DNA from: Multifurca ochricompacta
Lineage: Eukaryota > Basidiomycota > Agaricomycetes > Russulales > Russulaceae
NCBI GenBank assembly: GCA_022496185.1
Contig: WTXG01000038.1
Location: 62,001-126,000 of the forward strand
Direction of reading: 5' to 3'
DNA: 64,000 nt
In this document: positions 9,242 through 47,109 of the stretch, one piece after another
Position numbering within the stretch: the stretch's first letter is position 1
Layout: each line of letters starts with the position of its first letter
Made by a program: the position numbers and the translations under genes
The notes under the pieces: generated by a model
The model's input: only the letters and a program-made list of their open reading frames with translations
Database searches by the model: none
What the model was told of the DNA's origin: nothing

Positions 9242-12200
9242 CGGGTGATGCCAAAAAAATAAATAATACCACGAAGTGATATACTATCGAACAAAAGAGC
9301 ATCTATACAGATTTCTTGACATACGATGTGAATAGGTGAGGTTGAACGCTCTTACCCAAACGTTATTAAGATACTAACCACTAGCGAAAGCTTTCCTCCA
9401 TCACGCACCATAATGAACAAAGTTCACCCACCGCTCCAGAGTCATCCCCTTCTTTCTCCTCATCTTCCGCGTCGCATCACGAAGCGCCCTCGCAGACCTC
9501 AAGTGATAAGGTACCTCTTGTCCATTCCTAGAGAACATCGACTTGTAGAAATTCTCTGCAATTTCACATCCATCTATATCTGCCATCTCCCACATCGTCC
9601 CCACCACACTTCGAAACCCACAATATTGCACTGCCGCAGTAAGATGAAGTCCCTCGTCAGCAATACTGTCACCTGTCAATTCCGCAGTGTGACATGCAGC
9701 AAGGAATGCAAATTCAGCAGCAGGCAGTTGAGAGCGTACAATGTCGAGTAGAGTAAGGCGCTCATCATCGAACAGCTTGAATGATGCATCGAATGGTTTC
9801 CCAGTCTCGAGCTTGCCATGACACACGAAATGTACCAATCCGTGATGTCGTAGTCCTTCCACCACACCAGCCGGTGTCGCGATCTTCCCACAGAGGGTGG
9901 TCACCGGCAGCCGCGAATTGAAAGACTGTATGATTTCCATCTCTCCAAAAGCGCCTGGTAAGGATTCATCTGGATTAGCCACAAGGAGTAATGAAGGTTG
10001 GTACGATGTTCTTGGACTGGGTTTGCGAGACTCGATGAGTGCAGAGAGTGTCGGTGTATATGAAGGGATATATAGATCTGAAAAGTATCGCTTGACACCA
10101 TCATTTGATGGGATTGGGCCCATCGCATGAAGGGGAAGTGAGCAGAAAACGGAGGTCGGACACCACCAGATTCGTGATTGTTCTGGTACCCCCAAAGCGC
10201 ATAGCCTGTCGATGACTGGTCTGCCGACGAGTTTGTAAAGGCCGTCGAGTACAGAACGTAAAGCGCGTTTGTATTTGTCTGAGTCGAGACCCTCGTTTCG
10301 TGCGACCACTAGGCGATCTTTTAATTCATTTGCAAGATGATAGAAATCTTTAGTTGTAAGGATAAGGGAAGGGGGAGAGTTGTGAACGAGAATGAGGATA
10401 TCGGAACGCCACTTGCTATGATTGATAATGACGATGGGCCCATGTGAAGCAGCAATACGAATATTTTCGAATGATGGCGTCTTCAGAAACTCACCAAACC
10501 CTGGTAATTCTTGGATCTGCGACACGAGCACATCCCGCTCCTCCAGAAGCTTCTGTTGCTTGACCACCAGACGACCGAATGGGTCCATCCCATCACCAAT
10601 CTGTGATCCACCATCGCTGATCTCTATAGTCCCACTCGGCGTGACAGACATGGTGAGTGACTCGAGATCCTGATTAATTGCTGCAAGTTTCGTCGCTAAA
10701 GGTGAATTGAATCGAGAAAGGTGATCCATGGAATTGCGAAGACCACGCATTTCAGACCATAGTAATGCCCTCCCTTGTTCTAGAGTCTCAATAGCCTGAG
10801 TGAATTGACCCATGTCGATCTGGTAAGACGCGTAGTCCAGTGGCATCTTGTCACAGAGCCCTCGCATTGCGACCAGTCGAGCATGCTGTATTTGTAAGGT
10901 CGGCGCGGAGACAAATGAGCTTTGTATTAATGACATGGCCATTTGGTATGCATCAGAGACGGACGGGTGCTTGGCCGATCGCACAATGGATGCCCAGCGG
11001 CATGACAAAGTAAATCGGTCAGATACCTTTGCAAATTTATCATTGACACCCAAACGAATTAGCTCAATGATTTCATCGAAATCCTGTCTTCGACCAAGCA
11101 ACCTGAAGCGTTGGGATAAAGACTTGAAAAGTTGTTTGATTAAAGTGAAGTGGTATCGCCGGGCGCTTTGCATTTCGAGAACACCACGATGCAAGGTGAT
11201 AGACTCGTCAAGGTACTCCATTTTATTCGAACACTCAAACGCCATGTAGAGGTCAAAGCCCAAATCGAATGCCGGTTGAATCCAAATGGATGACTCGTGT
11301 CAGCTGACGCAACTAGTACCCGGCGGCACTTGATCACCTCTTCAAGGTCCGTGATATCGTCGGTACGAGAGAACTTGGTTGTATACCAATCCGCAAGACG
11401 TCTGAGGTACGCGTTGCGCTCGGAGGACCTTGGCGGAGTCTTGGAGATCAGTTTTGAATATTTTGAATTTTCTCGTCTACCACCTTCATCGGATACGCCG
11501 CCCGGACAGCATCAACTTTGTCAATTTCTTCTTGAGATGTGATGTGAGCTGAGGACGATGAGGCAAGGCTGACCATTTCGGAAGTATATGAACGTGATTC
11601 TTGAAGAGCCTCTGTGAGACCGAAGTTATCGAAGCGCTTCTTAGCAGGGATGCCATCCATGGGTAAGTACATGCCGAAAGCGGTTGTCAAGGGAAGAAGA
11701 GCCGAGTACGGTACGAAAACGGGAAGTCGCCTCCTCTAAATATTCTGGATTTGGATGGAAGGTAGCCCGAACGCGCGCAAGAGTCGCGGCAAATGCCAAA
11801 GCTTCATTCTGAGTTTTACTGCGGTCATTCCCAAGAGGACTTGAGGCAATGACACTTTCTAGGAGGGTTATTGCCTCATCGTAATCGTTGTTTGAATAAT
11901 TTGTTCCATATCGAATTAAGAGGAACATAATCAGTCCGAGAAGAATGTCATGAGAGCCTGGCGGTAAGATCTTCAGCGCGTCCCGAAGGCATTGAATGAC
12001 TCCATCTATCGGCTCTACTTGCTTCCCTTGAAAAATTTGTGTGAAATGGCGGAGATCGAGGTGAGAATGGCGCCAGTTGGATAGTTTACTGAGTTGTGAC
12101 AGGTGAGAAGTTCTTGGCAGAGCATCACCATCTCCTCAATATCCCGCTTCTCATCCGCTTCCAGCTCAACTTGAATAGTCAACGCCTTAACAAGCGATGC

Positions 12201-13165
12201 CGTGACGAGTTCGTGCGAGACCTCAAAGGTATCAAGGGTAGTCCTCGGAGATAACGAAGGTATCCAATCGTACACTTGACATCTTCAGGTTGCTTGAACT
12301 TCTCGGAACGAAGAAAAAGGGAAAGTGCGAGTTGAAAGAAGATTTGAACCACATTTAGGTAGAATCCCCAGGAAGGTGGAAGAAAGATCGCTTCGGTGTA
12401 ATGAACAATAGATTTGTCGAGATCTTCCTTCTGTTCTGATAGCTTATAGCGTTCGAATCGTGATCTGGCCAGACGGTGGATGTAGGTAGTGTAAAGGGGA
12501 TGAGATCGAGGGATCCTTGAGAGAGCACGCTGATGAGAAGTGATCATTTGGTCAAGTTCCATGATGGAGGCTGCGAATAAGAAAAAAATGAATTACTGAT
12601 GATCGAAGGGCATATGCTCGGGAAAGAGGTGACCAAGTTGTGCACTTACATTCTTGGGCCATGGTTTATTAAATGTACAAGAATCACAGTAACCGCGGGT
12701 CCTCTGGCGATGAATTGAGAGAGTAAACGGCGAAAATGGTTGCGGGTGCTGGAGAACGGCAAAGACCACGCCAGAATACATGTTTTATAGAGCATGAGCA
12801 TGAGGACAAAACGAGGCAACGAGGCAATGGAGGGCGGCTGTTCCCCGGCCCGTCAAACCGGAACCGTTTGCTTGACTTTGAGCTTGCGGTGAGTGTGAGG
12901 CAAAGTGTGTCCCCAAAAGGAGAGAGGTAGGGTGTGCCGTGCTTGTACCTGTGAATATGCTGCTTGCTGTTTCCATTTGACCTTGCGCTTGTCGTCATTG
13001 TGAAATCATTTAGCACACAAAGATAAAGAGAAAAAACCTAGATTGTTGATTCACCGGCTCAACTACAAGCATTGTAGATACCTTTATATTTTTGTTGAGA
13101 GTCCAGAGTGGAATAGTAAGAAGCAAGCCATAGAGAGTGAATTTGGATAATAAAAAAAGACAGAT
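9242..13165. repeat. Segmental duplication, copy 1 (contains TPR-CHAT gene A)
   Basis: This stretch is repeated in direct orientation at 16968-20726 plus 25841-26070. Homology starts at GGGTGATGCCAAAAA in both. It runs through the 3' flank, the whole TPR-CHAT gene and its 5' region (TGCCGTGCTTGTAC, CATTTGACCTTG), and fades around the AAAAAAAGACA tract (13165 and 26065). The GH5 gene lies between the two copies. Confidence 0.85.
9401..12662 (-). pseudogene. TPR-CHAT protein, copy A (TPR part frameshifted, CHAT part open)
   Basis: A fungal TPR-CHAT protein: helical TPR-like repeats followed by a caspase-like CHAT protease domain, a class tied in other organisms to protease switching in defence and cell death. 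The start is ATGGCCCAAGAAT at 12662-12650, followed by a 79-nt intron (GTAAGT 12649 to CAG 12571), then MELDQMITSHQR. The TPR half (12570-11264) has at least four indels relative to copy B, near 12240, 12050, 11650 and 11460. The last 620 codons (11263-9401) are open. In that ORF the predicted dyad is His482 (HFVCHG) and Cys524 (LAACHTAEL). It could be a pseudogene or a gene with assembly errors. No gasdermin-like or other target gene is visible nearby. It is transcribed divergently from the GH5 gene. Confidence 0.8.
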
Positions 13166-16843: not shown

Positions 16844-17146
16844 AGATTTGAAATTCCACCTAGATAAGTTTTTTTTGTTTTTTGTCTTGGGTGGGTCGGT
16901 GAATACCTTGTAACCCACCCACTACTAAAGATTGGGAATATATATTTCCGAGTAGTTACTTTACCCACTTGGGTGATGCCAAAAAATAAATACTATTTCC
17001 AATCATATACCTCCACACGAACTGATATACTATCGAACAAAAGAGCATCTATACAAATTTATTGACATAGGATGTGAATAGGTGAAGCAGAAGGCTTTTA
17101 CCCAAACGTTATTAAGATACTAACCACTAGCAAAAGCTTTCCTCCG
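16844..17146. other. Convergent 3' intergenic region
   Basis: The region between the GH5 stop and the stop of TPR-CHAT B holds both 3' untranslated regions. From about 16968 it is the second copy of the duplicated unit (GGGTGATGCCAAAAA, ATCGAACAAAAGAGCATC). No further gene is seen. Confidence 0.6.
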
Positions 17147-20100
17147 TCACGCACCATAATGAACAAAGTTCACCCACCGCTCCAGAGTCATCCCTTTCTT
17201 TCTCCTCATCTTCCGCGTCGCATCACGAAGCGCCCTCGCAGACCTCAAGTGATAACCTACCCCTTGTCCATTCCTAGAGAACATTGACTTGTAGAAATTC
17301 TCTGCAAGTTCACTTCCATCAATATCCGCCATCTCCCACATCGTCCCAACCACACTTCGAAACCCACAATATTGCACTGCCGCGGTAAGATGAAGTCCCT
17401 CGTCAGCGATACTGTCATCTGTCAATTCCGCAGTGTGACATGCAGCAAGGAATGCAAATTCAGCAGCAGGCAGTTGAGAGCGTACAATGTCGAGTAGAGT
17501 AAGGCGCTCATTATCGAACAGTTTGAATGATGCATCGAATGGTTTCCCAGTCTCGAGCTTGCCATGACACACGAAATGTACCAATCCGTGATGTCGCAGT
17601 CCTTCCACCACACCAGCCGGTGTCGCATTCTTCCCACAGAGGGTGGTCACCGGCACCCGCGAATTGAGAGACTGTATGATTGCCATCTCTCCAAAAGCGC
17701 CTGGTAAGGATTCATCTGGATTAGCCACAAGGAGTAACGAAGGTTGGTACGACGTTTTTGGACTGGGTTTGCGAGACTCGATGAGTGCAGAGAGTGTCGG
17801 TGTATATGAAGGGATATATAGGTCTGAAAAGTATCGTTGACACCGTCATCTGATGGGATTGGGCCCATCGCATGAAGGGGAAGTGAGCAGAAAACGGAGG
17901 TCGGACACCACCAGATTCGTGATTGTTCTGGTACACCTAAAGCGCGTAGCCTGTCGATGACTGGTCTGCCGACGAGTTTGTAAAGGCCGTCGAGTACAGA
18001 ACGTAAAGCGCGTTTGTATTCGCCTGAATCGAGACCCTCCTTTCGTGCGACCACTAGGCGATCTCTTAGTTTATTTGCACGGTCGTAGAAATCTTTAGTT
18101 GTAGGGATAATGGAAGGGGGAGAGTCGCGAACGAGAATGAGGACATCGGAACGCCACTCGTTATGGTTGATAATAATGACTGGCCCATGTGAAGCGGCAG
18201 AACGAATAGTTTCGAACGACGGTGTCTTCAGAAAGTCTTCAAACCCTGGTAATTCTTGGATCTGAGACACGAGCATATCCCGCTCCTCCAGAAGCTTCTG
18301 TTGCTTGACCACCAGACGACCGAATGGGTCCATCCCATCACCAATCTGTGATCCACCATTGCTGATCTCTATAGTCCCACTCGGCGTGACAGACATGGTG
18401 AGTGACTCGAGATCCTGATTAATTGCTGCAAGTTTCGTTGCTAAAGGTGAATTGAATCGAGAAAGTTGGTCCATGGAATTGCGAAGGCCACGCATTTCAG
18501 ACCATAGTAAGGCTCTCCCTTGTTCTAGAGTCTCAATAGCCTGAGTTAATTGACCCATGTCGATCTGGTAAGACGCGTAGTCCAGTGGCATCTTGTCGCT
18601 GACCCCTCGCATTGCGACGAGTCGAGAATACTGCACTTGTAAGGTCGGCGCGGAGACAAATGAGATCTGTATTAATGACATGGCCTTTTGGTATGCAACA
18701 GAGACAGATGGGTGTCTGGCCATTCGAGCAAGGGATGCCCAGAAACATGACAAAACAAATCGGTCAGATACCTTCGCGAATTTGTCATCGACAGCCAAAG
18801 GACATAGCTCAATGATTTCATCCAAATCCTGTTTGTGACCAAGTAATCCAAAGCGTTTGGATAAAGACTTATGAAGTTTTGGATCAGAACAAAGTGGAAT
18901 GTCCGGGTGCTTTTCATCTCGAGAAGACCACGACACACGGTGATAGACTCGTCAAGGTACTCCATTTTATTCGAACACTCAAATGCAGCGTAAAGGTCGT
19001 AGCCCAAAGAGAGTGCTGAATGAGACCCAAATGGTGACCCGTGTCAGTTGAAGAAGTAACATTCGGCGATACTTGATAACCTCTTCGAGGTCCTTGATAT
19101 CCCTGGTACGAGAGAACTTGGTTTCATGCCAATTCACAAGATCCTTGATGTGTGTGTTGTGATTGGAGTTGCCCGGGGGAGTCTTGGAGATTAGTTCGCG
19201 AAGATTTCGGATTTTCTCCTCTACCACCGTCATCGGATACGCTGCCCGGACGGCTTCCACATTGTCAATTTTTCTTAATGTGCCGTGAGCTGAGGATGAT
19301 GAGGCAAGGCTGACGATTTCGGAAGTATATGAACGTGATTCTTGAAGGGCTTCTGTGAGACCGAAGTTCTCGAAGCGCTTCTCAGCGAGGGATGCCATGC
19401 AATCGGTAAAACTATGCCGAAGGTCGTTGTCAAGGGAAGAAGAGCAGAGAAAGGTACGAAAACGGGGAATCGCCTCCTCTAAATATTCTGGGTTTGGATA
19501 GATGACAGCCCTCATGCTCGCAAGAATCGTGGCAAGTCCTGGAGCCCCAATCTGAAAATGACAGGGGTCATCCCCAAATTGACAGGGACAGCCAAGAGGA
19601 CTTGAGACAATGATACTCTCTAGGAGGGTCATTGCCTCCTCGTAGTCGTCGTTTAAATAATTTGTTCCGTATCGAATTATGAGGGAAGCAGCCAGTCCGA
19701 GAAGAACTAGATGAGAGCCTGGCGGGAAGATCTTCAACGCGTCCCGAAGGCATTGAATGACTCCATCTAACGGCTCTACTTGCTTCCCTTGACAAAATTT
19801 CCATAAAATGGCGGAGAACAAGCCGTCAATGGCGTGAGTTGTATAGTTTGCAGAGCTGTGACAGGTGAGAAGTTCTTGGCAGAGGATCACCATCTCCTCA
19901 ATATCCCCCGTCCCATCCGCTTCCAGCTCAACTTGAATAGCCAACACATGAACAAGCGATGTTGTGACGACATTGCACGGGACCTCAAAGGTATCAAGGG
20001 GTAGTCCTCGTAGATAACGAAGGTATTCAACCGCACACTTGACATCTTCAGGTTGCTTGAACTTCTTGGAACGACGAAAAAGGGAAAGTACGAGTTGAAA

Positions 20101-20325
20101 GAAGACTTGAACCACATTTAGGTAGAATCCCCAGGAAGGTGGAAGAAAGATCGCTTCGGTGTAATGAAGAATGGATTTGTCAAGATCTTCCTTCTGTTCT
20201 GATAGCTCATAGCGTTTGAATCGTGAATTAGCCAGAAGGTGGATGTAGGCAGTGTAAGCGGGATGAGATCGAGGGATCCATGAGAGAGCACGCTGATGAG
20301 AAGTGATGATTTGGTCGAGTTCCAT
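17147..20325 (-). pseudogene. TPR-CHAT protein, copy B (TPR part open, CHAT part frameshifted)
   Basis: Paralogue of the gene at 9401-12662, with the opposite pattern of damage. The TPR half is one 448-codon open frame (20325-18979, MELDQIITSHQRALSWIP). The first exon seen in copy A is lost because its ATG reads AAG here (about 20415-20420), so I start at MELDQ. Relative to copy A there are single-base losses near 18875 (before SLSKRFGLLG) and near 17838 (after PIPSDDGV). A change of frame near 19000 is shared with copy A. The C-terminal frame 17728-17147 keeps the CHAT dyad motifs HFVCHG and AACHTAEL. It is probably a pseudogene unless the indels are sequencing errors. Confidence 0.8.
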
Positions 20326-21483
20326 AATGGAGGCTGCGAATAAGAAATGGATTACTGATGACCGAAGGGCATATGCTCGGGGAAGAGGTGACTAAGTTGT
20401 GCACTTACGTTCTTGGGTCTTGCTTTATTCAATGCACAAGAATGACGGTAATTGTGGGTCCTCTGGCAATGAATTGAGAGAGTAGATGGCGAAAATGGTT
20501 GCGGGTTCTGGAGAACGGCAAAGGCCACGGCTATAATACATGTTTTTATAGAGCATGAGGACAAAATGAGGCAACGAGGCAATGCAGGGCGGCTGTTCCC
20601 GGTACCATTGAGCTTTGGTGGATCTTGCGATCGTCGGTGTACTTGCAGAACGGATCCAATCCGTGGTGAGTGCAAGGCAAAGTGTGTCCCCAAAAGGAGA
20701 GAACCAGGGTGTGCCGTGCTTGTACTTAGTGTTGTGACGGCCCCGGCTCGGCCTGAAGCCGCGGCTTAGGCTCGGCTTTTGGCGGCTCAGGCTTTTCAAA
20801 ACTCAAGCCTGGGCCGTAGCGACGGCTTCCGGCCGGCTTAGGCCCGGCTTAGGCCCAAGCCGCGGCTTTACAGCGTCAAATCCAGTTTTAGCTGCATTTT
20901 TTGAAGGACTTGTAGTTTACATTATATCAACCCCTGGCTACTGCTTTGGCCTTCTGCCATATTATGTCTCCTATTTAACTCCTGTAACATAAATTGTCTT
21001 AGTTTAGCTTGTATCAATAACAGTGTTTGTAACAGGTGCTTCTATCCTGTGCTTGCTATGTAGATAAGATAAGATGTTGAGATCATGGTGAAACTAAGAG
21101 TGAAAATCCAGCAAGAATAGACCTATATTGAACAATTGCTAAGAGCCTACAGCCCCAAGAGGACAAAATGGGGTCTGTAGTGTGCTACAGGGCATCTTTA
21201 AATAGGTTCTAGTACTATTCTATGAAATACCAAAGCCAATCGAGCATGTGATGTAAATCCAATTAGTTATCAGTGGCTTACTTTCATAAGTACCCTGACA
21301 CATCTTATTTACTAATGCGCGATTGCTTCTGCTGGTCTGGCATTATCTAAAATACATACTAGACTACTTTAGACTACTCTACAATCAGATTATCAATTAA
21401 TATTACTCAAAAAATGGCCATGTGTATCTATAATGTCCTTTGCTGCATAAAAAATGCACATCCAGGACAGCATTGAATTTGTT

Positions 21484-22988: not shown

Positions 22989-23756
22989 TTCTTGAAAATC
23001 ATGATGCACCTGTTTTATCAATGTGCGACCAATTCTGCCGGTCTGGCACTATCTAAAATACTCTCTAGACTACTTTAGACTATAATATAATCAAATTATC
23101 AAATTAGTTTACTGAAAAAAGGCCCGCGTGTATCTACAAGCTGCATGGGGCAGCGACTACATTGCATCACATGGTGGTCTGACCTCCTTCCTATTAAGGA
23201 AGGTTGACTTAAATGCACAAGGACAGTCACACTTGTATGAAATGAAAGCAGAATAATAAAATAATAATGTAAATAAAGGATCCTTTTAATCTTCTGAACA
23301 TAAACCAACAATATTTGAGGGCTCTTGAGTAGCCATAAATGAACACATTGTGTCCAAGTGCTTATCTCCTTGACTGGGATGGCCCAGGCCACTTATCTGA
23401 AATGCGCAGAAACACAAAGAACAGTCACACTCATATAAAATTAAAACCAGAATAATAAAATAAAAATGGAATAATAAATTATCTTAATCTTATGAACATA
23501 AAATAGGAATTTTGAGGGATCTTGAGTAGCCATAAATGAACACGTTGTGTCCAAGTGCATATCTCCTTGACCAGGATGTCCCAGGCTGGATGTCCAAAAT
23601 GCACAATGCAAGTAAAGAACTTGCACACATTTCATTTTATGGGTAACCCAGGTATCAAAACAATTACCCAGGGGTTACCCCTGCCAATGTCTATGTGTTC
23701 ATTAAATTTTTTTGCATTCTGTGCAGTTATCTGACAGGCTATTCATCAATGTTCTA

Positions 23757-25378
23757 CAGTGCCTCACAAAACTGAGTCAATGTTTTGCACTTTTGCACTG
23801 TTTGTTGAATATCACATCAGCCAAAACAAATATAAACAAAGTCTTGGTAGACCATAAAAGGTACAAGATAAGGGTTATGTAATGCAACAATAATTATGTA
23901 ATTCTGATCAAAACCTGTGGAGCTATGCCCATTTCAAATTGGGGACTCATTGACTCAGTTTTGTGAGTGGGTATCAGAAATATCAGAATCTGATGCTCCA
24001 CCAAATGTACAGCAACCAATCCTTAATATATGGTTACCATAGTTATCTTAATATTGATGGGACCTGGAATAGAGCTATTTAATCATGGTTTACATTCCCA
24101 GAATATTATAATTTCCCAATGCACCCCACCTCCTCTGCTCAGAAAGAAAACATGCTCTCTCTGGCCTCTGAAGGTCATTCCACTCACACTATTGCCTCCA
24201 GACTTAGCCTCAGCCAGTCCACAGTCTCTAGGACACTCAGAACCCTCCTTCCCAACCATCAGTCACCTCATTTTGGTCATCCTTCCAAGCTCTCTGCTAC
24301 CTCTGAACATGCTATCATGATACAAATCAGCACAGGAAAGGTTGTCAATGCTGTCCAGGCCACAAAGCACATCAATTCCATCATTCCCAACCATGTCTCT
24401 TCACAAACTGTGCATTGGGTTCTTAAACAACATTCATTCAAGGCTGTAACAAAGAAGAAAAGGCCACTACTCTCTGCAGTACATTGCAAGAAGCACTTAG
24501 CCTTTGCTTTGAAGTACAGAGAGTGGACTGTGGAGGACTGGCATCTGACCCAAACCTGTTAATTTTGGTCTCAGCTGACCAGATCACCCTCTCCCAGTCC
24601 TCCATAGCCCATTTCTGGTACTTCAAAGCAAAGGCTAAGTGCTTCTTGCAATGTACTGCAGAGAGTAGTGGCCTTTTCTTCTTTGTTACAGCCTTGAATG
24701 AATGTTGTTTAAGAACCCAATGCACAGTTTGTGAAGAGACATGGTTGGGAATGATGGAATTGATGTGCTTTGTGGCCTGGACAGCATTGACAACCTTTCC
24801 TGTGCTGATTTGTATCATGATAGCATGTTCAGAGGTAGCAGAGAGCTTGGAAGGATGACCAAAATGAGGTGACTGATGGTTGGGAAGGAGGGTTCTGAGT
24901 GTCCTAGAGACTGTGGACTGGCTGAGGCTAAGTCTGGAGGCAATAGTGTGAGTGGAATGACCTTCAGAGGCCAGAGAGAGCATGTTTTCTTTCTGAGCAG
25001 AGGAGGTGGGGTGCATTGGGAAATTATAATATTCTGGGAATGTAAACCATGATTAAATAGCTCTATTCCAGGTCCCATCAATATTAAGATAACTATGGTA
25101 ACCATATATTAAGGATTGGTTGCTGTATATTTGGTGGAGCATCAGATTCTGATATTTCTGATACCCCCTCACAAAACTGAGTCAATGAGTCCCCAATTTG
25201 AAATGGGCATAGCTCCACAGGTTTTGATCAGAATTACATAATTATTGTTGCATTACATAACCCTTATCTTGTACCTTTTATGGTCTACCAAGACTTTGTT
25301 TATATTTGTTTTGGCTGATGTGATATTCAACAAACAGTGCAAAAGTGCAAAACATTGACTCAGTTTTGTGAGGCACTG
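23757..25378. mobile_element. Palindromic Tc1/mariner element (inverted duplication of the 5' half)
   Basis: A 1622-bp element with ends CAGTGCCTCACAAAACTGAG, flanked by TA on both sides (23755-23756 and 25379-25380). The empty site is seen at about 27352. Instead of one transposase it has two near-identical arms (23757-24541 and 24594-25378) facing each other. Each encodes the N-terminal helix-turn-helix half (TIASRLSLSQSTVSRTLRTL). Only the minus-strand copy (25016-24438) reaches the catalytic start, as WSAETKINRFGSD. The usual first Asp of the SDET motif is Ala there, and the rest of the DDE domain is missing. No active transposase can be made. The whole unit can fold into an ~785-bp hairpin. 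Confidence 0.88.
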
Positions 25379-25840
25379 TATAACATCCTATCTAATCATC
25401 TCTGTATACTGGATTTTAGTTGTGCTTGTATAAAATTGAAAGCAGAATAATAAAATAAAAATGGAATAATGAATTATCTTAATCTTCTAAACATAAAATA
25501 AGAGTCATTGAGGGATCTTAAGCAGCCACAAATGAACACGTTGTGTATCTTCTTGGTCCGGGAAGTCCCAGGCCGGGTATCTGAAATGTGTGATGCAAGT
25601 AAAGAACTTGCACATGTTTTCATGGGTGACCCATGGGTAACCCATGGGTTACCTGTACCCATAGTGACAGGTACAGGTACAGGTATGGGTACCAATGAGG
25701 ATACCCCAGGGTTACCCCTGCCAATCACTAGCCTGAGCTGTGGGCCACTGGAAGCCGTTTTCACAGCCTATGTCGGCCCAGCTTTTTCCAACTCAGAAAC
25801 GGCTGGCTTATGGCTTTGAGCCAAGCCATGCACATCACTA

Positions 25841-26294: not shown

Positions 26295-26805
26295 TGTTGA
26301 CACAGGACGTGTCTGGAGATGCTTCAGGCATCTAAGGATTCGCTTCAGCTGTAGATTAGATTAAGATTAGATTCCGGAGTATCGGACTTTTTATGTTATC
26401 TTTATTACATTTCTTTCTCACCTTACTCAGCTGATTAGTGATAGAATTAGTAATGCGCAGTAAGCATGTGATATCTCCACGGCCAATGGCCTTATTCCCT
26501 CTCTGTTTATTGTCCGGCACTTGTGGACTTATTCCCAGTGCGCACAGACCATTTCCCCTGTCCACTATGAGTATATAAGGGTGTCTGTTTGGTCTCTTTC
26601 ACTTCAGAGTTTCTTCAACCTCTGAAGTGTAAGTCTTACTATACTCTCTACTTTCCTTTGACTAACGTCTCTTGTAGATACTTGTTCTTCTAGGTCAGTA
26701 GTATAGTTAATACAGAGTTTCTTCAACCTCTGAAGTATACTTGTTCTTCTAGCCTCACACGCTACTAACCACAGTCAGTATAACCAGCAGCATAATTGTT
26801 TGACA
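26295..26805 (+). mobile_element. Solo copia LTR (split-leader)
   Basis: 511-bp LTR, TGTTGACACAGG...GTTTGACA, with 5-bp duplication GTTTA (26290-26294 and 26806-26810). Split leader: R1a 26606-26628, intron 1 26629-26677 (49 nt, GTAAGT/CTAAC/TGTAG), R1b 26678-26693, joined copy 26714-26752. Both R1b copies read ATACTTGTTCTTCTAG, private to this LTR. Confidence 0.92.
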
Positions 26806-28549: not shown

Positions 28550-29046
28550 TGTTGAACACAGGAGATGTTCGGTGATGCTTCAGGCATCAGGTGATTAGAT
28601 TAGCTACTTTGTAGATTAGATTAGATACCGGAGTCTCGGACTATTGACACTATCATTATTACTTTCTTTCTCACATTCCGCAGTAGCTGACTGATACCAT
28701 GTAACATGTGATTCCTTATGGCCAATGGCCTTTCTCCCTCTATTTGTTTGTTTGGACTTTGTCCGGCACTTGTGGACTTATTCCCAGTGCACAGACCATC
28801 CCTTGGATAAGTATATAAGGGTGTCTGTTTTGTCTCTTACACTTCAGAGTTTCTTCTACCTCTGAAGTGTAAGTCGTCCTCTCTACTATCATCACTACCT
28901 TAGACTAACTCTGTATATAGAACTTGTCTTTCTAGGTGTGTAGTATAGTATAATAGAGTTTCTTCTACCTCTGAAGTAACTTGTCTTTCTAGCCTAACCC
29001 GCTAACCATCTACAGTCAGTATGCTGCGCCTCATGCCTGTTCTACA
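28550..29046 (+). mobile_element. 5' LTR of Copia-1 (split-leader)
   Basis: 497 bp. TATA box TATATAAG at about 28812. R1a 28846-28868, intron 1 28869-28920 (52 nt), R1b 28921-28935, joined copy 28955-28992. Both R1b copies read AACTTGTCTTTCTAG. A second intron could be 28936-28992 (TAG/GTGTGT to TTTCTAG). Confidence 0.92.
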
Positions 29047-29060
29047 GGTTATGGGCCCTG
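29047..29060 (+). promoter_or_regulatory. Primer binding site, half initiator tRNA-Met type (Copia-1)
   Basis: GGTTATGGGCCCTG directly follows the LTR. GGTTATGGGCCC is the exact complement of the anticodon arm of eukaryotic initiator tRNA-Met (GGGCCCAUAACC). It does not match a tRNA 3' end. Drosophila copia primes the same way with a cut tRNA. Confidence 0.8.
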
Positions 29061-29673
29061 GGCACGCTTTACTGATCTGTCACTTCTTTTGATCAGTCCA
29101 ACCTTTCTTCAAGCTCAACAGCTTCAAGACTTCATCTTTCCCAATCAGTCTTACAGTGAGCTTCGATTTCTATCCCTTGCCCTTAACTGTCCACAAGGTG
29201 GTGCACTTTATGTGCCCACCTTGATCTGTCTGGCTAGTCCCTCAGGGGATTCTTGCAAGAGGTGATGAGGGACCCTAAGTGGGTGAAACACCTTGAGTTC
29301 CTCATGTGCGCTCTAAGTAAATAGTATTCTTAGTTGTAGCTGGGTTTTGTCCCATCCATAGTCTTAGTAGGCCCTTGCCCAGAAGGCTTGGAGCTATAGG
29401 TTCAGTCAATGCTTGGCTCAATCTGTAAGCCAGGTTTAGCAACCTGCAGGTAGAGTTTAGGGTCTAGAACAAGGCATGGGTAGTCACTCCCATGATGCTT
29501 GGGCTCGATACAAGTAGGCTTGAACTACTATAGTAGATACACAGTAGCTAGAGGGTCTTGTCTCTGGGCAGAAGTACCCGCTGCTTTTATTGGGGGTCCG
29601 CCCAACCAGAGGAGATCTGATAGTCTACTATAGTCATGGCCCCAATCATCTAGGGCTTAATCATGGACTCCAC
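29061..29673 (+). other. Copia-1 5' leader, first part
   Basis: Non-coding leader, closely matching the Copia-2 leader at 30188-30800 (GTGATGAGGGACCCTAAG, CTTGAACTACTATAGTA). It is cut at 29673 by Copia-2 and resumes at 36188. Confidence 0.75.
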
Positions 29674-30173
29674 TGTTGAACACAGAAGATGTTCGGTGAT
29701 GCTTCAGGCATCAGGTGATTAGATTAGCTACTTGTAGATTAGATTAGATACCGGAGTTTCGGACTATTTACTATATCATTATTACTTTCTTTCTCACATT
29801 CCGCAGTAGCTGACTGATGCACTAGATAACATGTGATTTCTGTAGTAGCCAATAGCTTTACTCCCTCATGTTTATTGTTTGGACTTTGTCCGGCACTTGT
29901 GGACTTATTCCCAGTGCACAGACCATCCCTTAGAATTGTATATAAGGGTGTCTGTTTCGTCTCTTACACTTCAGAGTTTCTTCTACCTCTGAAGTGTAAG
30001 TCGTCCTCTCTACTATCTTCACTACCTTAGACTAACTCTGTATATAGAACTTGTCTTTCCAGGTGTGTAGTATAGTACAATAGAGTTTCTTCTACCTCTG
30101 AAGTAACTTGTCTTTCCAGCCTAACCCGCTAACTCACTTACAGTCAGTATGCTGCGCACATGCCTGTTTCACA
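29674..30173 (+). mobile_element. 5' LTR of Copia-2 (reference split-leader LTR)
   Basis: 500 bp, TGTTGAACACAG...TGTTTCACA. TATATAA at 29939-29945. R1a 29973-29995, intron 1 29996-30047, R1b 30048-30062, X 30063-30081, joined copy 30082-30119, U5 from 30120. Both R1b copies carry the private variant AACTTGTCTTTCCAG (CCAG instead of CTAG). Confidence 0.93.
29939..30119 (+). promoter_or_regulatory. Core promoter and split leader: TATA, R1a, intron 1, R1b, intron 2
   Basis: The repeated segment R1a begins 34 bp after the first T of the TATA box, where a transcription start is expected. R1a ends in GAAGT, then comes GTAAGT, CTAAC at 30032-30036, and TATATAG ending at 30047: a textbook 52-nt fungal intron. 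R1b follows for 15 nt. Then GTGTGTAG opens a 57-nt stretch ending CTTTCCAG at 30119, a candidate second intron that contains the pre-joined R1a-R1b copy. Removing both introns gives R1a-R1b-CCTAACCC, the same as genomic 30082 onward. The sequence is direct; splicing itself is inferred. Confidence 0.75.
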
Positions 30174-30187
30174 GGTTATGGGCCCTG
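30174..30187 (+). promoter_or_regulatory. Primer binding site (Copia-2)
   Basis: GGTTATGGGCCCTG follows the 5' LTR directly, as at 29047. It matches the anticodon arm of initiator tRNA-Met (half-tRNA priming). Confidence 0.8.
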
Positions 30188-31014
30188 AGCACACGTAACT
30201 GATCTGTACCCTTTTTTGATCAGTCCAACCTTTCTTCAAGCTCACTGCTTCAAGACTTCGTTCCCAATCACAGTCACAGTGAGCTTCGATTTTATTTGTC
30301 TCTTGCCCTTAACTGTCCACAAGGTGGTGCGCTTTATGTGCCCACCTTGATCTGTCTGGCTAGTCCCTCAGGGGATTCTTGCAAGAGGTGATGAGGGACC
30401 CTAAGCGGGTGAAACACCTTGAGTTCCTCATGTGCGCTCTAAGTAAATAGTATTCTTAGTTGTAGCTGGGTTTTCGTCCCATCCATAGACTTAGTAGGCC
30501 ACTTGCCCAGAAGGCTTGGGGCTATAGGTTCAGTCAATGCTTGGCTCGATCTGTAAGCCAGGTTTAGCGACCTGCAGGTAGAGTTTAGGGTCTAGAACAA
30601 GGCATGGGTAGTCACTCCCATGACGCTTGGGCTCGATACAAGTAGGCTTGAACTACTATAGTATTTACACAGTAGCTAGAAGGTTTTGTCTCTGGGCAGA
30701 AGTACCCGCTGCTTTCATTGGGGGTTCGCCCCAACCAGAGGAAACCCAATAGTCTACTATAGTCATGGCCCCAATCATCTAGGGCTTAATCATGGACTCC
30801 ACCACCAGCACTAGAGGAAGGGCTATATACCCTTTGTCTCTAGTGGAACTTGCGGTTGGCTCCTCCATGACATGACTCCCCATCTATTTACACAACGTCC
30901 CCCTGATGTGGGCTTAGGACTTGTTGTAGATGGCGCTAGATAGCCTACTATACTACTTAGAAGTCGCACATCAGAGGCAGGACTTTTTTAAGTTCTGAAG
31001 CATAGCGCCACAGA
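30188..31014 (+). other. Copia-2 5' leader
   Basis: About 830 bp of non-coding leader between the primer site and the gag start. The motif around 30795 (ATCATGGACTCCACCACC) is the site in the sister element where Copia-2 itself landed. No long open frame is present. Confidence 0.75.
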
Positions 31015-35695: not shown

Positions 35696-36187
35696 TGTTG
35701 AACACAGAAGATGTTCGGTGATGCTTCAGGCATCAGGTGATTAGATTAGCTACTTGTAGATTAGATTAGATACCGGAGTTCGGACTATTTACTATATCAT
35801 TATTACTTTCTTTCTCACATTCCGCAGTAGCTGACTGATCACATGTAACATGTATTTCTGTAGTGGCCAATGGCCTTTCTCCCTCATGTTTATTGTTTGG
35901 ACTTTGTCCGGCACTTGTGGACTTATTCCCAGTGCACAGACCATCCCTTAGATCGTATATAAGGGTGTCTGTTTCGTCTCTTACACTTCAGAGTTTCTTC
36001 TACCTCTGAAGTGTAAGTCGTCCTCTCTACTATCTTCACTACCTTAGACTAACTCTGTATATAGAACTTGTCTTTCCAGGTGTGTAGTATAGTAAATAGA
36101 GTTCTTCTACCTCTGAAGTACTTGTCTTTCTAGCCTAACCCACTAACTCACTTACAGTCAGTATGCTGCGCACATGCCTGTTTCACA
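35696..36187 (+). mobile_element. 3' LTR of Copia-2
   Basis: 492 bp, eight shorter than its partner. The differences are almost all lost single bases. Split leader: R1a 35990-36012, intron 1 36013-36064, R1b 36065-36079, joined copy 36098-36133. This is the one LTR where the joined copy differs visibly from R1a/R1b (two lost bases and CTAG against CCAG). Confidence 0.9.
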
Positions 36188-39100
36188 TCCACCACACTAG
36201 AAGGCTTATACCTTGTCTCTAGTGAACTTGCGGTTGGCTCCTCCATGACATGACTCCCCATCTATTTACACAATGTCCCCTGATGTGGCTTAGGACTTGT
36301 TGTAGATGGTGCTAGACAGCTTACTATACTACTTAGAAGTTGCACATCAGAGGCAGGACTTTTTTAAGTTCTGAAGCATAGCGCCACAGATTGGACGGGC
36401 CCTCTTAAATGAGACCTGGACAACTGGTTCTAATGCTCCTTGGAACCAGGATCAACCCTTAAAAATCATCTCAATGTCTTCCATCGTCTTCCCCCTACCT
36501 TCAAGTTTGATAAGCTTGATGGCTCCAACTGGCAGCAGTGGTCAGTGTCCTTCACTGCCCTGTTGAGGATCAATGGGATGAAGAGGCATATCATGCATGA
36601 TGTCCTGAGTTCCTGAATGCTCCCAAGCCAGAGGATGGAGAAAAGGATGACGAATATGCCAAACGCTTTGCGCTTTGGTCAGAGCCAATGTACGTGGAGT
36701 GGAATGGAGTTGAGGAAGTCCTCATGGGAGTTCTGGTGATGGTCACATCGCCAGAACATACTCCCAAATTGCCTCTGACAGAACTTATCCTTCTGTCATG
36801 CCAAATATGAGCGTTTGGAATCGCTCTATGGCACAGTAGGTAGCATGGCCACCTACAACTTGTGGTGTTCTGTATCCTCCTTCCGCTTGGAAGAAGGGAA
36901 GCAATTCAGACCCCAGTTGCAGCGTGTGTTGGATGTGAGGAGTACCCTCAAGGAAAATGGGATGGAGATCTCCGATCTCCAGCTGAGCTTTATTTTGCTC
37001 CAATCCCTACCTCCATCCTACTCAGCCATTGCTGGCTCAATCCTGGCGTCAGGTCCTCCTGACCGCCTTTCCCCTCAGGACCTTGTACAAAGGTTCCTAA
37101 ATGAGGAAAGCCGACTTGCCGGCCCTGCAGGAAGTGGTGTTGGGGCTGCCCTTAATAAGGCAGCCCATGTCAACAAAAATAAAATCAAAAAACAAGTATC
37201 ATTCATGCCACCTCCTGCAGGTGCATCATCGTCCAATGATGTCACCTGCTTCTATTGCCAGAAGCCGGGCCACAAGGCTAATGAATGTCGGCAAAGGAAA
37301 CAGGACAGAGCCAATGCTGATGCAGGCAAAAAGGGCAACAAGAGGAAGGGGCAAGGCCCCAGTGTACATAATAACTCCACACAAGTAGCTACCGTAGTTA
37401 ATGGTAGCGGCAGAATACAGGAGGTGCATGAGACACCTCGCATTTCACTTTATATGATGACCGAAAATACGCAAGAAGTCGATGATGGCAGCAATCCTTG
37501 GATGATGGACAGCAGAGCCACCACCCATTTTACACCATACTTAGATGATTTTTCTGAGTACTTCCCACACAAGGGACACTCGGTGACAATTGGTGATGGC
37601 TCAGTAGTCCAAGTCGAAGGAACAGGCAAAGTTATACTCAAAACTCGAAACAATTACGAATTAGAGTTAAATAACGTCTTCTATATGCCTGGTAGTGAAA
37701 GAATACTATCGACAAGCTGCATCACAGACAAAGGCGGTTCAGTGGAATTTTCTCCATCTGAAGTCAAAATAAAGTACAAAAATGAAATTATAGCGGAAGG
37801 TGTCAAGGCTATGGGACTCTATTGGGTCTTTGGGAAAACTATGCAGAATTTAAATACTGCTTCCCACAAATCTGCATCAAGTAGCCTTGATACCTGGCAT
37901 TTGCGCATGGGTCATATGTCAAAAGAGGCCCTCAAAAGACATGCTCCTAAGGCTGTAAAAGGCCTTAGTATTGATAATAGCCAAGTGGAAGACAAGCCGT
38001 GTTATGGCTGTGAAATGGGAAAATCACACCGTCTTCCATTCCCTCCCTCTCAAAAGAGAGCTTCAGCACCCTTGGAAGTCATTCATAGTGACTTAGTTGG
38101 TCCTTTACAATCCACTTCAATTCAAGGGAACCTATACTTCGCCACTTTCATAGACGACTTTAGCAGAACTGCCTTAGTTGTTGCTATGAAAGCTAAAAGT
38201 GAATTTACATCGGTCTTCTGTAATATTAAGGCATTCCTGGAAAATAAAACAGACAGGAAAATAAAGACCTTACATACAGACCGAGGTGGCGAGTTTGTTA
38301 ATAGGGAGCTGAAGTCAATACTTGAGAAGGCTGGCATAGAGCATAAATTGACAATGCCATATTCCCCACAACAGAATGGAAGGGCTGAAAGGTTCAACAG
38401 AACCATCATGGAAAAGGCCACCAGTATGCTGCATCATGCTGGTCTTTCCCTTGGTTTCTGGGAATGTGCAGTGCGAACAGCCTGTCACATATACAATAGA
38501 ACACCTATTCACTCTAATAAGTGGAGGACACCGCTAGAACTTCTGGATGGGGACATTCCAGATGTTTCTTACTTTAAAATATTTGGCTGCTTAGCCTACT
38601 ACACTGTCCCAGAGGACAAAAGATGTAAACTGGATCACAAAGCCAGGGAGACAGTCTTTGTTGGGTATGCACCCCACTCTAAAGGATATCTTCTTTGGGA
38701 TATGCATACCCGATTGTTGACACGGGATGTGTCTGGAGATGCTTCAGGCATCTGAGGATCGCTTCAGCTGTAGATAAGATTAGATTAGGTTCCGGAGTTT
38801 CGGACTTTTTACAATATCTTTATTACATTTCTTTCTCACCTTACTCAGCTGATTAGTGATGCCCTTAGTAATGCGCAGTAAGCACGTGATATCTCTTTGG
38901 CCAATCGCCTTTATCCCTCTTTGTTTATTGTCCGGCACTTGTGGACTTATTCCCAGTGCGCACAGACCATTTCCCCTTGTCCCTAAGAGTATATAAGGGT
39001 GTCTGTTTCGTCCTCTACACTTCAGAGTTCTTCTAACATCTGAAGTGTAAGTTCCTTTTAGTTTACTCTCTACTTCCTTTAGACTAACGCTTCTTATAGT

Positions 39101-41348
39101 ACTTGTCTTTTCTAGGTCAGTAGTGTAGTAATACAGAGTTCTTCTAACATCTGAAGTTACTTGTCTTTTCTAGCCTTACACGCTACTAACCACAGTCAGT
39201 ATAACCAGCAGCATGATTGTTTCACACCGATCCTTTGTATTGTCAAGAGATGTGACATTCGATGAAGGGTCCTTTCCATCCAACCTTGCCAAGGACAGCA
39301 AGGGAAAGCAAAAGGAAAAAGTTACACCTTTTGTCTTAGAAGTTGAGAGGCCTGTCCAGCCTCAACCAGCAATAGCCACGGTTCCTCAGGCTCCTGAAGA
39401 CAAGGACACCAAGGTTGAGGAACAGGAGGTAGTGGAACCTCCTCAAATAAATCCTGAGCCTACCACACCAGAGAATGAGCTTGACACACACGATCAAACC
39501 ATCTATCAGACACCACCATCCCAAATCTTGGAACCCTCTGAACTCCCTCAGAGAACCCGTGCCAAAAGACAGTCTAAAAAGAATGTTGGCAAAATTTCCC
39601 AACCAGTATTTACTAGGGAAAGTCCACGCTCTCAGCAACGTGACAGGGCTGTGCAGGAAGATTTAGATCTTGATACTGCCCGTCCCAAACGTTCACGTCG
39701 CATGAACCCTTGTTTTTATAATGAGGATAATGCTGAGTTCGTGGAGGGTTCTTCCAGACTTGGACATATGGAATTGCTAAATGCCGCAGGTGTCTCTCAT
39801 AGAGACCCCCTGACTTTTCAGGAGGCAATGCAGTCTGACAATGCCAGTGAATGGCTTGAGGCATGTAAATATGAAATAGATGCCTTAGATAAACTTGATG
39901 TGTGGCGCCTTGAGGATCTTCCTAAGGGAAGAAAGGCTGTCAAGTCAAAATGGGTTTTTAAGCTGAAACCAGATGGACGGTTTCGTGCTAGGCTCGTGGC
40001 AAAAGGTTTCACCCAAATAGAAGGGGTGGACTTCGATGAAACATTTTCTCCAGTCGCCAGATTTGAGTCATTAAGACTATTACTAGCGCTAGCTACACTA
40101 GAGGATTGGGAAATCCACCAGATGGATGTTAAATCAGCATTCCTACATGGCGATCTGGATGAAGAAATATATATGGAGCAACCAGTTGGTTTCGTCATTG
40201 CTGGTCAAGAGTCCAAAGTTTGTAGGCTACAAAAAGCATTATATGGCCTCAAACAAGCATCCCGAGCATGGAATCTACAATTCCATGGAGTTCTTAATGA
40301 ACTAGGCTTTACTCGGATGTACTCTGATGCAGGAGTATACGTGTATCATCAAAAGGAGGAGGATGATTCACTTTATGTCATTCTCTATGTAGATGACATT
40401 ACTATACTTGGGTCTTCCAATGATAAGATAACGTGGCTGAAGTCAGCTCTATCTAATCGATATGAGATGACTGACTTGGGAGAAATCCAGTCATATCTTG
40501 GAGTTAACATCACCAGAGATCGTCCTAACAAGACACTGGAGATTGACCAAGCAGCCTACGTTTTATCTATTATTGAGAAGTTTGGGATGAGGGATTCCAA
40601 CCGAGTATATACTCCTCTTCCCTCTGGCGCTGATGTACATCTGGTCAAATTTGAAGGCCAGGCATCTACTTCTGAAATAAAGAAGTATCAACAGTTGATG
40701 GGGTCTCTGCTATGGGTGCAGATTGGAAGCAGACCTGACATCAGTTTTGCTGTGGTGCGCCTTAGTCAATATGCTTCCAACCCCTCTCAAGATCACATGC
40801 GACTTGCAAAATATGTCTTAAAGTATCTTAATAGTACAAAAGACTACAAGTTGTGGTATTCTGGAGGGAATGGGGAGAGTGGTCTTCAAGGCTTTGCAGA
40901 TTCCTCATGGGGAGATCAAGAGGACTGCCACTCAACCTCTGGCTATGTGTTTTTCTTAGCAAATGGTGCCATATCCTGGTGTTCCAGAAAGCAGAAAACA
41001 GTAGCACAGTCCACCACTGAGGCCAAATATATGAGTCTCTCTGAGGCTGCAAATCAGGCAGTGTGGTATAGGACTTTTATGGAGGAATTAGGGTATGAGG
41101 TATCCTCCCCTATATTACTTCACTGTGACAACAAAGGTGCCGTAGATCTGGCATTAAACCCAGTCACGGGAAGGCGGTCAAAGCATATACCCATCAAGTA
41201 CCATGCCATTAGGGGGTACATTGAATTGCACACAATTGAGTTAGTGCGAACCCCCACAGGTGAGATGCTGGCAGATGGCTTTACTAAGTCTCTGCCAAGA
41301 GCATCGTTTGAAACCATGGTCAATGGACTTGGTCTTATGCTGAAATGA
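36188..41348 (+). pseudogene. Copia-1 gag-pol polyprotein, split by a solo LTR
   Basis: The region starts with the resumed leader (36188-36385) and a gag start near 36398 that is frameshifted up to about 36815. From 36815 to 38714 it is open: the rest of Gag, the CCHC knuckle, the protease, pre-integrase (HLRMGHMSKEALKRH) and integrase (HTDRGGEF, YSPQQNGRAERFNR). The solo LTR 38715-39226 interrupts it. 39227-41348 is open again: reverse transcriptase (GVDFDETFSPVARFES, YVDDITILG), RNase H (GFADSSWGDQEDCHST) and the stop at 41346-41348. The two open frames are in phase across the insertion. The protease active site reads DSR, not DSG, which should inactivate it. Confidence 0.9.
38715..39226 (+). 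mobile_element. Solo copia LTR inside Copia-1 pol
   Basis: 512 bp, TGTTGACACGGG...TGTTTCACA, with 5-bp duplication CCGAT (38710-38714 and 39227-39231). The sister element at 33326 shows the empty site. Split leader: R1a 39024-39046, intron 1 39047-39099, R1b 39100-39115, joined copy 39135-39173. The R1a variant (AACATCT) and the R1b variant TACTTGTCTTTTCTAG both recur in the joined copy. Confidence 0.93.
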
Positions 41349-41637: not shown

Positions 41638-42138
41638 TGTTGAACACAGGAGATGTTCGGTGATGCTTCAGGCATCAGGTGATTAGATTAGCTACTTTGT
41701 AGATTAGATTAGATACCGGAGTCTCGGACTATTGACACTATCATTATTACTTTCTTTCTCACATTCCGCAGTAGCTGACTGATACACCATGTAACATGTG
41801 ATTCCTGTAGTGGCCAATGGCCTTTCTCCCTCTATTTGTTTGTTTGGACTTTGTCCGGCACTTGTGGACTTATTCCCAGTGCACAGACCATCCCTTGGAT
41901 AAGTATATAAGGGTGTCTGTTTTGTCTCTTACACTTCAGAGTTTCTTCTACCTCTGAAGTGTAAGTCGTCCTCTCTACTATCATCACTACCTTAGACTAA
42001 CTCTGTATATAGAACTTGTCTTTCTAGGTGTGTAGTATAGTATAATAGAGTTTCTTCTACCTCTGAAGTAACTTGTCTTTCTAGCCTAACCCGCTAACCA
42101 TCTACAGTCAGTATGCTGCGCCTCATGCCTGTTCTACA
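41638..42138 (+). mobile_element. 3' LTR of Copia-1 (split-leader)
   Basis: 501 bp and almost identical to 28550-29046. Split leader: R1a 41938-41960, intron 1 41961-42012, R1b 42013-42027, joined copy 42047-42084. It is preceded by the purine tract GGAGGGA and followed by the target duplication TTAAG. Confidence 0.92.
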
Positions 42139-46613: not shown

Positions 46614-47109
46614 TGTTGACATGGTATGTGTCTTGAGGTGCTTCAGGCATCTAGGTTAGGGTCTAAGCTGCGCAAGATTAGATTAGATAAAGATTCGGAC
46701 TTTCAGACTTTTTACCATATCATTATTACTTTCTTTCTCGCGATGCGCAGCAGCTGACTGATGTACCTTAGTAATCCTGTATAGCATGTGATATCTCACT
46801 GGCCAATGGCCTTTGTCCCTCAGTAGTATATTCTAGCGCATTCCATTGCGCACAGACCATCCCTTGAGTAGTATATAAGGGTGTCTGTTTCGTCTCTTAC
46901 ACTTCAGAGTTTTCTTCACCTCTGAAGTGTAAGTCCCAGTCCTTTACTTACTATCTTACCTTTGACTAACCATCTCATGTAGATAACTTGTCCTCTAGGT
47001 GTGTAGTATAGTAATAAAGAGTTTTATTCACCTCTGAAGTATAACTTGTCTCTCTAGCCTTACACACTAACTACAGTCAGTATCACTGCGCACACATGCC
47101 TGTTCTTCA
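46614..47109 (+). mobile_element. Solo copia LTR with diagnostic R1 differences
   Basis: 496 bp, TGTTGACATGG...TGTTCTTCA, with 5-bp duplication CATAA (46609-46613 and 47110-47114). R1a 46906-46928, intron 1 46929-46982, R1b 46983-46998, joined copy 47018-47057. Here R1a and the joined copy differ at one base (TTTTC against TTTTA), and R1b differs by one inserted base and a shift. RNA from this LTR could therefore tell splicing from direct initiation. Confidence 0.92.

Follow-up and report, generated by a model that had tools for sequence, protein, structure and literature searches.

At positions 29674-30173 the window, a 64,000-nucleotide stretch of Multifurca ochricompacta DNA, contains a copia LTR in which two short sequences, R1a and R1b, occur twice: once separated by a 52-nt segment that begins with GT and ends with AG, and once more downstream, directly joined to each other. 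The parts of this LTR are as follows.

29674-30173, plus strand: copia LTR with the arrangement, 500 bp, TGTTGA...TTCACA; limits set by self-alignment and by the PBS-like GGTTATGGGCCC that follows
29939-29946, plus strand: TATA box TATATAAG, recognised by sequence, 34 nt 5' of R1a
29963-29976, plus strand: left arm of a 14-bp inverted repeat; 10 of the 14 bases lie upstream of the putative RNA start
29973-29995, plus strand: R1a, putative leader exon 1; its first base is the presumed RNA start, and identity with the joined copy begins here
29987-30000, plus strand: right arm of the inverted repeat, spanning the intron 1 donor GTAAG
29996-30047, plus strand: putative intron 1, 52 nt, GTAAGT...GACTAAC...TATATAG, with CTAAC at 30032-30036
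30048-30062, plus strand: R1b, putative leader exon 2, 15 nt, delimited by sequence and by comparison of LTRs
30063-30119, plus strand: putative intron 2, 57 nt, GTGTGT...CTTTCCAG, made up of a unique 19-nt start and the joined copy; absent from LTRs that have lost both segments
30082-30119, plus strand: joined R1aR1b, a 38-mer; candidate DNA-stored spliced leader and proposed landing site of strong-stop DNA
30120-30173, plus strand: putative exon 3 and remaining R-U5, with CAGTCAGTAT; colinear with the predicted doubly spliced RNA
30174-30185, plus strand: PBS-like GGTTATGGGCCC adjoining the LTR end, recognised by sequence and found likewise 3' of 5' LTRs

The sequence check confirmed the positions of R1a, the 52-nt GT-AG segment, R1b and the joined copy as first described; in the joined copy R1a stands at offset 0 and R1b at offset 23. 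The LTR and about 0.6 kb of leader are tandemly doubled at 93% identity (28550-29673 and 29674-30802, within 28550-30802 of the window). Inside exon 3 the sequence GCTAAC...ACAG/TCAGTAT (30129-30143 and its counterparts) resembles an additional branch point with acceptor. This CTAAC...ACAG/TCAGTAT was tried as an alternative acceptor of intron 2, and the pattern of the expected product gave 0 matches.

Thirteen LTRs of the window keep both copies. The sequence-only reading had called 11 of them exact and two nearly exact (35696-36187 and 46614-47109) and had given the length of intron 1 as 49-55 nt; the same counts were obtained here, and the length range was borne out in the exact LTRs. The other LTRs of the window, and the reverse transcriptase gene, are listed below.

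531-680, plus strand: R1a, intron, R1b, intervening sequence and joined copy, exact
5325-5476, minus strand: same arrangement, exact; the LTR is split further upstream by other sequence
26606-26752, plus strand: same arrangement in another subfamily, exact; intron 1 of 49 nt
28846-28992, plus strand: same arrangement, exact
35990-36133, plus strand: same arrangement, nearly exact
39024-39173, plus strand: same arrangement, exact
41938-42084, plus strand: same arrangement, exact
46906-47057, plus strand: same arrangement, nearly exact
51244-51390, minus strand: same arrangement, exact
53074-53224, minus strand: same arrangement, exact
60083-60233, plus strand: same arrangement, exact
62979-63128, plus strand: same arrangement, exact
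47960-48360, minus strand: LTR with both putative introns exactly removed; R1a (48051-48029) is joined to R1b (48028-48013), followed by CCTAACATGC
39213-41348, plus strand: ORF of a Copia-type reverse transcriptase (RVT_2, PF07727, E 9.6e-81)

The window was also scanned without any motif, on both strands, for an exact 12-mer and 10-mer with a segment of 40-200 nt. Of the 27 placements obtained, 12 were LTRs with the arrangement and a GT-AG segment, one was the LTR at 35990 with the boundary shifted by one, and 11 were the same LTRs on the opposite strand. The remaining three, near 27507, 59832 and 20833, were different repeats that lacked GT-AG.

Several other repeat structures were seen in the window. 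The minus-strand LTR at 5277-6382 has about 580 bp of other sequence between its parts (5277-5618 and 6200-6377), 1.6 kb at 23749-25386 form a large palindrome that equals its own reverse complement at 97%, and a 3.7-kb direct repeat of 88% identity (9270-12948 and 17016-20725) contains long minus-strand ORFs. Additional repeats with TATATAAG (TATATAAGACCCTGTAGACAG... or TATATAAGGCC...) are located at 44226, 58856, 51007 and 61109 on the plus strand and at 2409 on the minus strand; they suggest further repeat families and were absent from the matches of the motif-free scan.

Judged by their domains and by their LTR, PBS-like and PPT-like sequences, the elements classify as Copia. The ORF at 36815-38755 encodes gag, zinc knuckle, gag_pre-integrs, rve and SH3 domains, and the next one, at 39213-41348, encodes RVT_2. 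An LTR (38715-39226) lies between the two ORFs, which may come from two elements. In metagenome relatives rve and RVT_2 are found within one protein, listed in that order, i.e. with the integrase before RVT_2 as in Ty1/copia. No relatives were found in viral contigs. The LTRs occur as pairs, with GGTTATGGGCC after 5' LTRs, CATGGAGGGA before 3' LTRs and 5-bp flanks that match in the elements C12 (CCCTT) and C212 (TAAAG) and are not shared in the pair C19. The PBS of copia elements is commonly complementary to the anticodon arm of initiator tRNA-Met, which we take GGTTATGGGCCC to resemble. Continuous anticodon-arm patterns matching GGTTATGGGCCC gave 0 hits in the assembly, where a tRNA intron could hide the arm.

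Two GT-AG segments in the leader

A donor-like GT (GTGTGT or GTCAGT) stands directly after R1b in all 13 window LTRs, and AG closes the joined copy. Removal of intron 1 alone would leave GTGTGT after R1b. The sequence that actually follows the joined copy is CCTAAC, which calls for a further splice running from R1b to where the joined copy ends. Removal of both segments yields exactly the DNA from 30082 onward. This points to two introns instead of one, the second (30063-30119) enclosing the joined copy.

To see how general the arrangement is beyond the window, we turn to the whole assembly (53.8 Mb, 605 contigs), which was searched and from which 127 distinct candidate LTRs were gathered; they came from exact-motif lists and from loci near reverse transcriptase matches and are a non-random sample. 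A piece of RPB2 from this genome had 77% identity to Marasmius and up to 96% to other records, which makes an agaricomycete host probable. Eleven candidates had no second TGAAGT (the eight LTRs described below that lack the second segment only, and L055, L061 and L132). Among the 116 that had it, 101 were exact in R1a, R1b and every GT-AG boundary. A stricter parser could read 109; the seven dropped on pattern include none of the non-exact LTRs. Genome-wide, the full arrangement had 1344 exact-motif matches with a pattern that does not require the second copy, and the second copy was present in all 72 LTRs fetched from this list (71 with an intact TGAAGT, L132 with TGAAGC). The number of matches indicates that the arrangement is neither due to chance nor restricted to the window.

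The donor of intron 1 was GTAAGT in all 109 parsed LTRs, as required by the parser. A CTRAY-type motif was found in 108 of them, and the segment ended with AG in 106. Intron 2 was 54-60 nt long and started with GTCAGT (74 LTRs), GTGTGT (34) or GCCAGT (1), that is, with GT in 108 of 109. The five LTRs dropped by the intron 2 pattern (GTCAAT, GTATGT or GTTAGT) likewise have GT after R1b. Three LTRs lacked AG at the best-fitting intron 1 boundary. One of these, L133 (GTGG), can be read as a point change, and in the nearly exact LTR at 35990 differences blur the boundary; L099 has one extra G in the joined copy, with no explanation past an indel. Joined copies that break the GT-AG boundaries are thus rare in the sample, as the sequence-only reading would have it.

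At the sequence level both segments have the GT donor, the branch motif and the AG at the exact boundary that are expected of spliceosomal introns. An ordinary contiguous R was not found at the putative RNA start, where exons 1, 2 and 3 are parted by the two GT-AG segments; given this start, the leader sequence is contiguous only from the joined copy on. Versions such as CTAACTTGTCTTTTAG suggest that R1b plays a double role: in its first place it would be a mini-exon, and in its second place it would supply the branch-like motif, the pyrimidine stretch and the acceptor of intron 2.

A proposed copying cycle and LTRs without the segments

We consider it very probable that the leader is spliced twice and transferred to the joined copy of the 3' LTR, so that each cycle retains the upstream introns and writes the joined copy anew. 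The 5' leader would contain intron 1 (R1a/GT...AG/R1b) and intron 2 (R1b/GT...AG/exon 3), both within the LTR, and the doubly spliced RNA would match the DNA of the LTR beginning at the joined copy. On the spliced leader reverse transcriptase would make minus strong-stop DNA ending in R1a, and this DNA would land on the joined copy within the 3' LTR stretch of an RNA. Extension in the upstream direction would then take in the first part of intron 2, followed by R1b, intron 1, R1a and U3. The progeny LTR would in this way retain its introns, and its joined copy would be a rewrite made from the parent's spliced leader. The scheme is drawn with an assumed length of R and an unplaced poly(A) site. 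Mistaken landing on the upstream R1a would lead to the loss of both introns together, and strong-stop DNA shortened by a cut in R1b and landing on the upstream R1b would lead to the loss of intron 2 alone. For the loss of intron 1 alone there would be no route, and none would be expected.

Exact-motif counts over the whole genome gave 49 LTRs from which both segments were gone, eight from which only the second was gone, and none from which only the first was gone; the last count holds for exact motifs on both strands, a pattern that diverged cases may escape. The 49 LTRs contain 33 distinct R1aR1b versions; in 48 of the 49 R1aR1b ends with AG, and 15 of the 49 match a spliced upstream version among the 109 sampled LTRs. 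A U3 tree of 65 full LTRs, 25 without both segments and six without the second (one row was left out) required at least 17 changes between the full and the doubly deleted state, with many of its forks weak. At the sequence level these results show exact double removal in many lineages, and the 49 LTRs are an indirect sign of intron excision by the spliceosome.

LTRs without both segments occur as 5' LTRs with a PBS and as 3' LTRs with a PPT. The example in the window (47960-48360, minus strand) is preceded by the PPT-like ATGGAGGGA and is thus a 3' LTR. In one element the double loss is present at the 5' LTR with the PBS (L057) as well as at the 3' LTR with the PPT (L058), with TAAAG on both flanks, and matching 5-bp flanks were found on six more LTRs of this kind (L040, L048, L050, L064, L067 and L068). 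The matching flanks and the double loss in L057/L058 indicate that the loss predates integration.

All eight LTRs without the second segment were on the plus strand, and the reverse pattern recovered the same eight only. Five of them end exactly at the usual exon 3. The jump in L075 lies within a shared CTCT and is microhomology-like, and L070 and L071 are a related pair with an end other than the usual exon 3.

Expanded LTRs, which RNA spliced at intron 1 only would be expected to yield on being copied to the joined site, were also considered. The eight pattern matches proved to be ordinary full LTRs plus a second CAGTCAGTA, which in six of the eight loci belongs to an abutting LTR. In these six (L097, L107, L172, L174, L175 and L177) the LTR end abuts exon 3 of a like LTR. 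The abutment is right at CTAAC in L097, L107, L172 and L175, as if this were a favoured insertion site, in a sample that was picked by pattern and is biased.

The introns could be real and the LTRs without both segments could nevertheless derive from spliced 3' LTR RNA, and not from strong-stop DNA landing on the wrong R1a. The same splice signals are present in 3' LTR RNA, and the eight LTRs that lack only the second segment can be cited for this origin. However, donor and branch site of intron 1 look better by eye than those of intron 2, so that intron 1 would be expected to be lost alone most often, and this was seen 0 times with exact motifs on either strand. Because of this failed prediction splicing of 3' LTR RNA was rated below the strand-transfer geometry, and we regard it as a rather unlikely source of the losses.

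Coupled variation and the probable start of the copied RNA

R1b and the loop of R1a vary among LTRs by substitutions and indels, in 64 combinations. In the 109 parsed LTRs, with their 64 distinct upstream versions, exons and joined copy were identical in 97 cases, had one difference in seven and two differences in five. The mean distance between exons and joined copy was 0.16 nt when both came from one LTR and 5.8 nt when they came from different LTRs; the minimum of 10,000 permutations was 4.98. In 67 of 116 LTR pairs sharing near-identical flanks a difference was seen in the exons and in the joined copy alike, in 43 in neither and in six in only one of them; in 51 of the 67 coupled pairs each LTR was internally identical. 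The coupling in these pairs gives a Fisher p of 1e-24, which is descriptive since pairs share members.

Twelve neighbouring LTR pairs on the same strand were compared as well. Exons and joined copy carried an equal change in four (including C3 14.5/20.4 and C7 20.3/26.3), five were unchanged, and three had changed on one side only. A 13th pair (C9) was unreadable by the parser and was excluded, and the pair parser found nothing in loci L162-L166 and L171, fetched as possible pair mates. Of six full LTRs read by eye (L172-L177), five were exact and one had a single difference. Later mutation is expected to account for some of the uncoupled cases (6 of the 116 close pairs and 3 of the 12 neighbouring pairs).

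In the proposed cycle the joined copy would lag one generation behind the upstream exons. Both LTRs of the C12 element, which has CCCTT on both flanks, read CTTATAG upstream and CTTTTAG in the joined copy. The CTTTTAG joined form recurs elsewhere (in two LTRs of the exact set and in five rows without both segments); the CTTATAG exon form does not. In the C19 pair, too, exons and joined copy mismatch alike in both LTRs, but the flanks of this pair differ.

It had been argued from the sequence that a tandem duplication could not produce such a pattern, and the boundaries, the coupling and the motif-free scan led us to reject both duplication and chance. The central proposal of the sequence-only reading, a back-copying of spliced leader RNA into the LTR, is supported by the coupled variation and changes, the splice boundaries and the recurrent exact losses. 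It was incomplete in two respects: two introns appear to be needed, and the copying appears to be recurrent and not one past event.

A single ancient copy-back, or a tandem duplication followed by an intron-like insertion, would leave the likeness of the two copies to the youth of the LTRs or to selection. The arrangement is common to the sampled subfamilies and hence old, and identity may be selected if strand transfer requires it. Yet there are 64 upstream versions with copies identical or nearly so within the LTR, and LTRs with nearly identical flanks have already altered both copies together; drift would uncouple the copies, and selection alone would leave many intermediates. A single event is thus very unlikely.

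The first base of the identity bears on where the copied RNA begins. The base 5' of R1a is C in 109 of 109 LTRs, being fixed by the parser; the base 5' of the joined copy is T in 76, C in 22, A in six and G in five. In the 5' direction the identity reaches as far as the A of AGAG, 33-34 nt past the TATA box, which fits a copied RNA beginning there. The distance between TATA box and R1a, put at about 34 nt in the initial description, was 34 nt in 41 and 33 nt in two of 43 LTRs (those of the window and L009-L038); these were located by a TATATAAG-type box and ACTTCAGAG, and the spacing itself was the test. The RNA of the element probably starts at R1a.

Gene conversion at the DNA level, without an RNA step, is able to homogenise close repeats, but between repeats as short as these (23 and about 15 bp) it would need separate, very short tracts ending at GT and at AG, and it leaves unexplained both the 49 LTRs with exact loss of both GT-AG segments and the unconverted base in front of the joined copy; we hold it to be highly improbable. 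There is similarly little to recommend an RNA start at the joined copy (30082) with the upstream R1a, intron and R1b as a U3 relic: being colinear with U5, the joined copy would serve as an ordinary R, but all 43 LTRs checked have a TATATAAG-type box 33-34 nt 5' of the upstream R1a, no TATA box stands 34 nt 5' of 30082, and a relic would hardly retain GT, CTAAC, AG or the coupling to the joined copy.

A possible hairpin across the putative RNA start, known systems and meaning

The cycle of double splicing and rewriting would have intron 1 spliced at the 5' end of the RNA and kept at the 3' end. It is possible, though we advance it tentatively, that this stored-leader cycle is assisted by a hairpin hiding the intron 1 donor only in 3' LTR RNA. 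Through the inverted repeat 29963-29976/29987-30000 the donor GTAAG would be paired with bases that precede the putative RNA start and would be present in 3' LTR RNA only. Of the ten outer pairs of the hairpin, 59 of the 109 LTRs keep ten, 48 keep nine and two keep eight; the parser fixes about six of the ten, leaving four positions as the free test. CACTTCAGAG was found before the loop in 43 of 43 LTRs marked OK (listed by TATA box). The left arm varies, and no compensatory changes were found in it.

When foldings were predicted for RNA that stops 6 nt after exon 1, the probability of an unpaired donor was 0.92 in the 5'-type, 0.30 in the 3'-type and 0.60 with shuffled upstream sequence (lower in the 3'-type in 108 of 108). 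The values were 0.58 for the 5'-type vs 0.28 for the 3'-type when the RNA ended 15 nt past exon 1, and with an end 30 nt past exon 1 there was no real difference in donor pairing (lower in 52 of 108). For an RNA of 170 nt from the start the effect at equilibrium was small (0.375 in the 5' LTR, 0.280 in the 3' LTR and 0.351 shuffled; lower in 77 of 108). That the hairpin blocks splicing of intron 1 in 3' LTR RNA only is speculative.

The elements resemble Ty1/copia in gag, zinc knuckle, integrase, RVT_2, PBS- and PPT-like sequences and 5-bp flanking repeats. Textbook strong-stop transfer has an uninterrupted R at either end of the RNA, whereas here the 5' R would be contiguous in DNA only as the copy stored downstream. 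Foamy viruses and the BLV/HTLV group have a splice donor in R. As in those retroviruses, splicing would begin inside R, and the 5' and 3' LTR would need different treatment. The retroviral intron, however, extends beyond the LTR to the coding region and gives rise to subgenomic RNA, whereas both introns delimited here lie inside the LTR; we know of neither a complete intron within R nor a stored copy of the spliced product in these viruses.

Functional introns of EVADE, Ogre and Cer1 serve subgenomic or regulatory RNAs, according to the available part of PMC12786077. As in these elements, spliced and unspliced RNAs would coexist; introns inside the LTR are not described for them in that part of the source (PMC12786077). 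Intron-marked retrotransposition assays, as presented there, also use precise intron removal as a mark of passage through RNA, but their introns are engineered and lost after one cycle, whereas here natural introns would be kept and the spliced product stored alongside (PMC12786077). The work on the Tto1 R region likewise deals with the R stretch used in strand transfer, and the passages available mention neither an intron nor a spliced copy (PMC12786077). A literature search at the level of titles and abstracts, in which subscription journals are thinly covered, recognised no LTR-internal introns with a stored spliced copy. What appears to be new is that whole introns lie in the LTR beside their stored spliced product and that replication of the element would keep the two matched.

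In an LTR element R is rebuilt from the spliced 5' end, so any intron close to the start of the RNA ought to disappear in the first round of reverse transcription. The present family seems to escape such loss by storing the spliced sequence downstream as the target of strand transfer. Short LTR repeats dismissed as tandem duplications may, as a caution, be splice products. If the proposed cycle is true, the LTRs hold a natural and repeated record of spliced RNA written into DNA at known positions, and the accuracy of strand transfer could be read from genome counts, with 1344 LTRs of the correct type vs 49 plus 8 aberrant ones (copies, not independent events). They would also offer a clean case for studying how splicing can act on a sequence at one RNA end and leave it intact at the opposite end.
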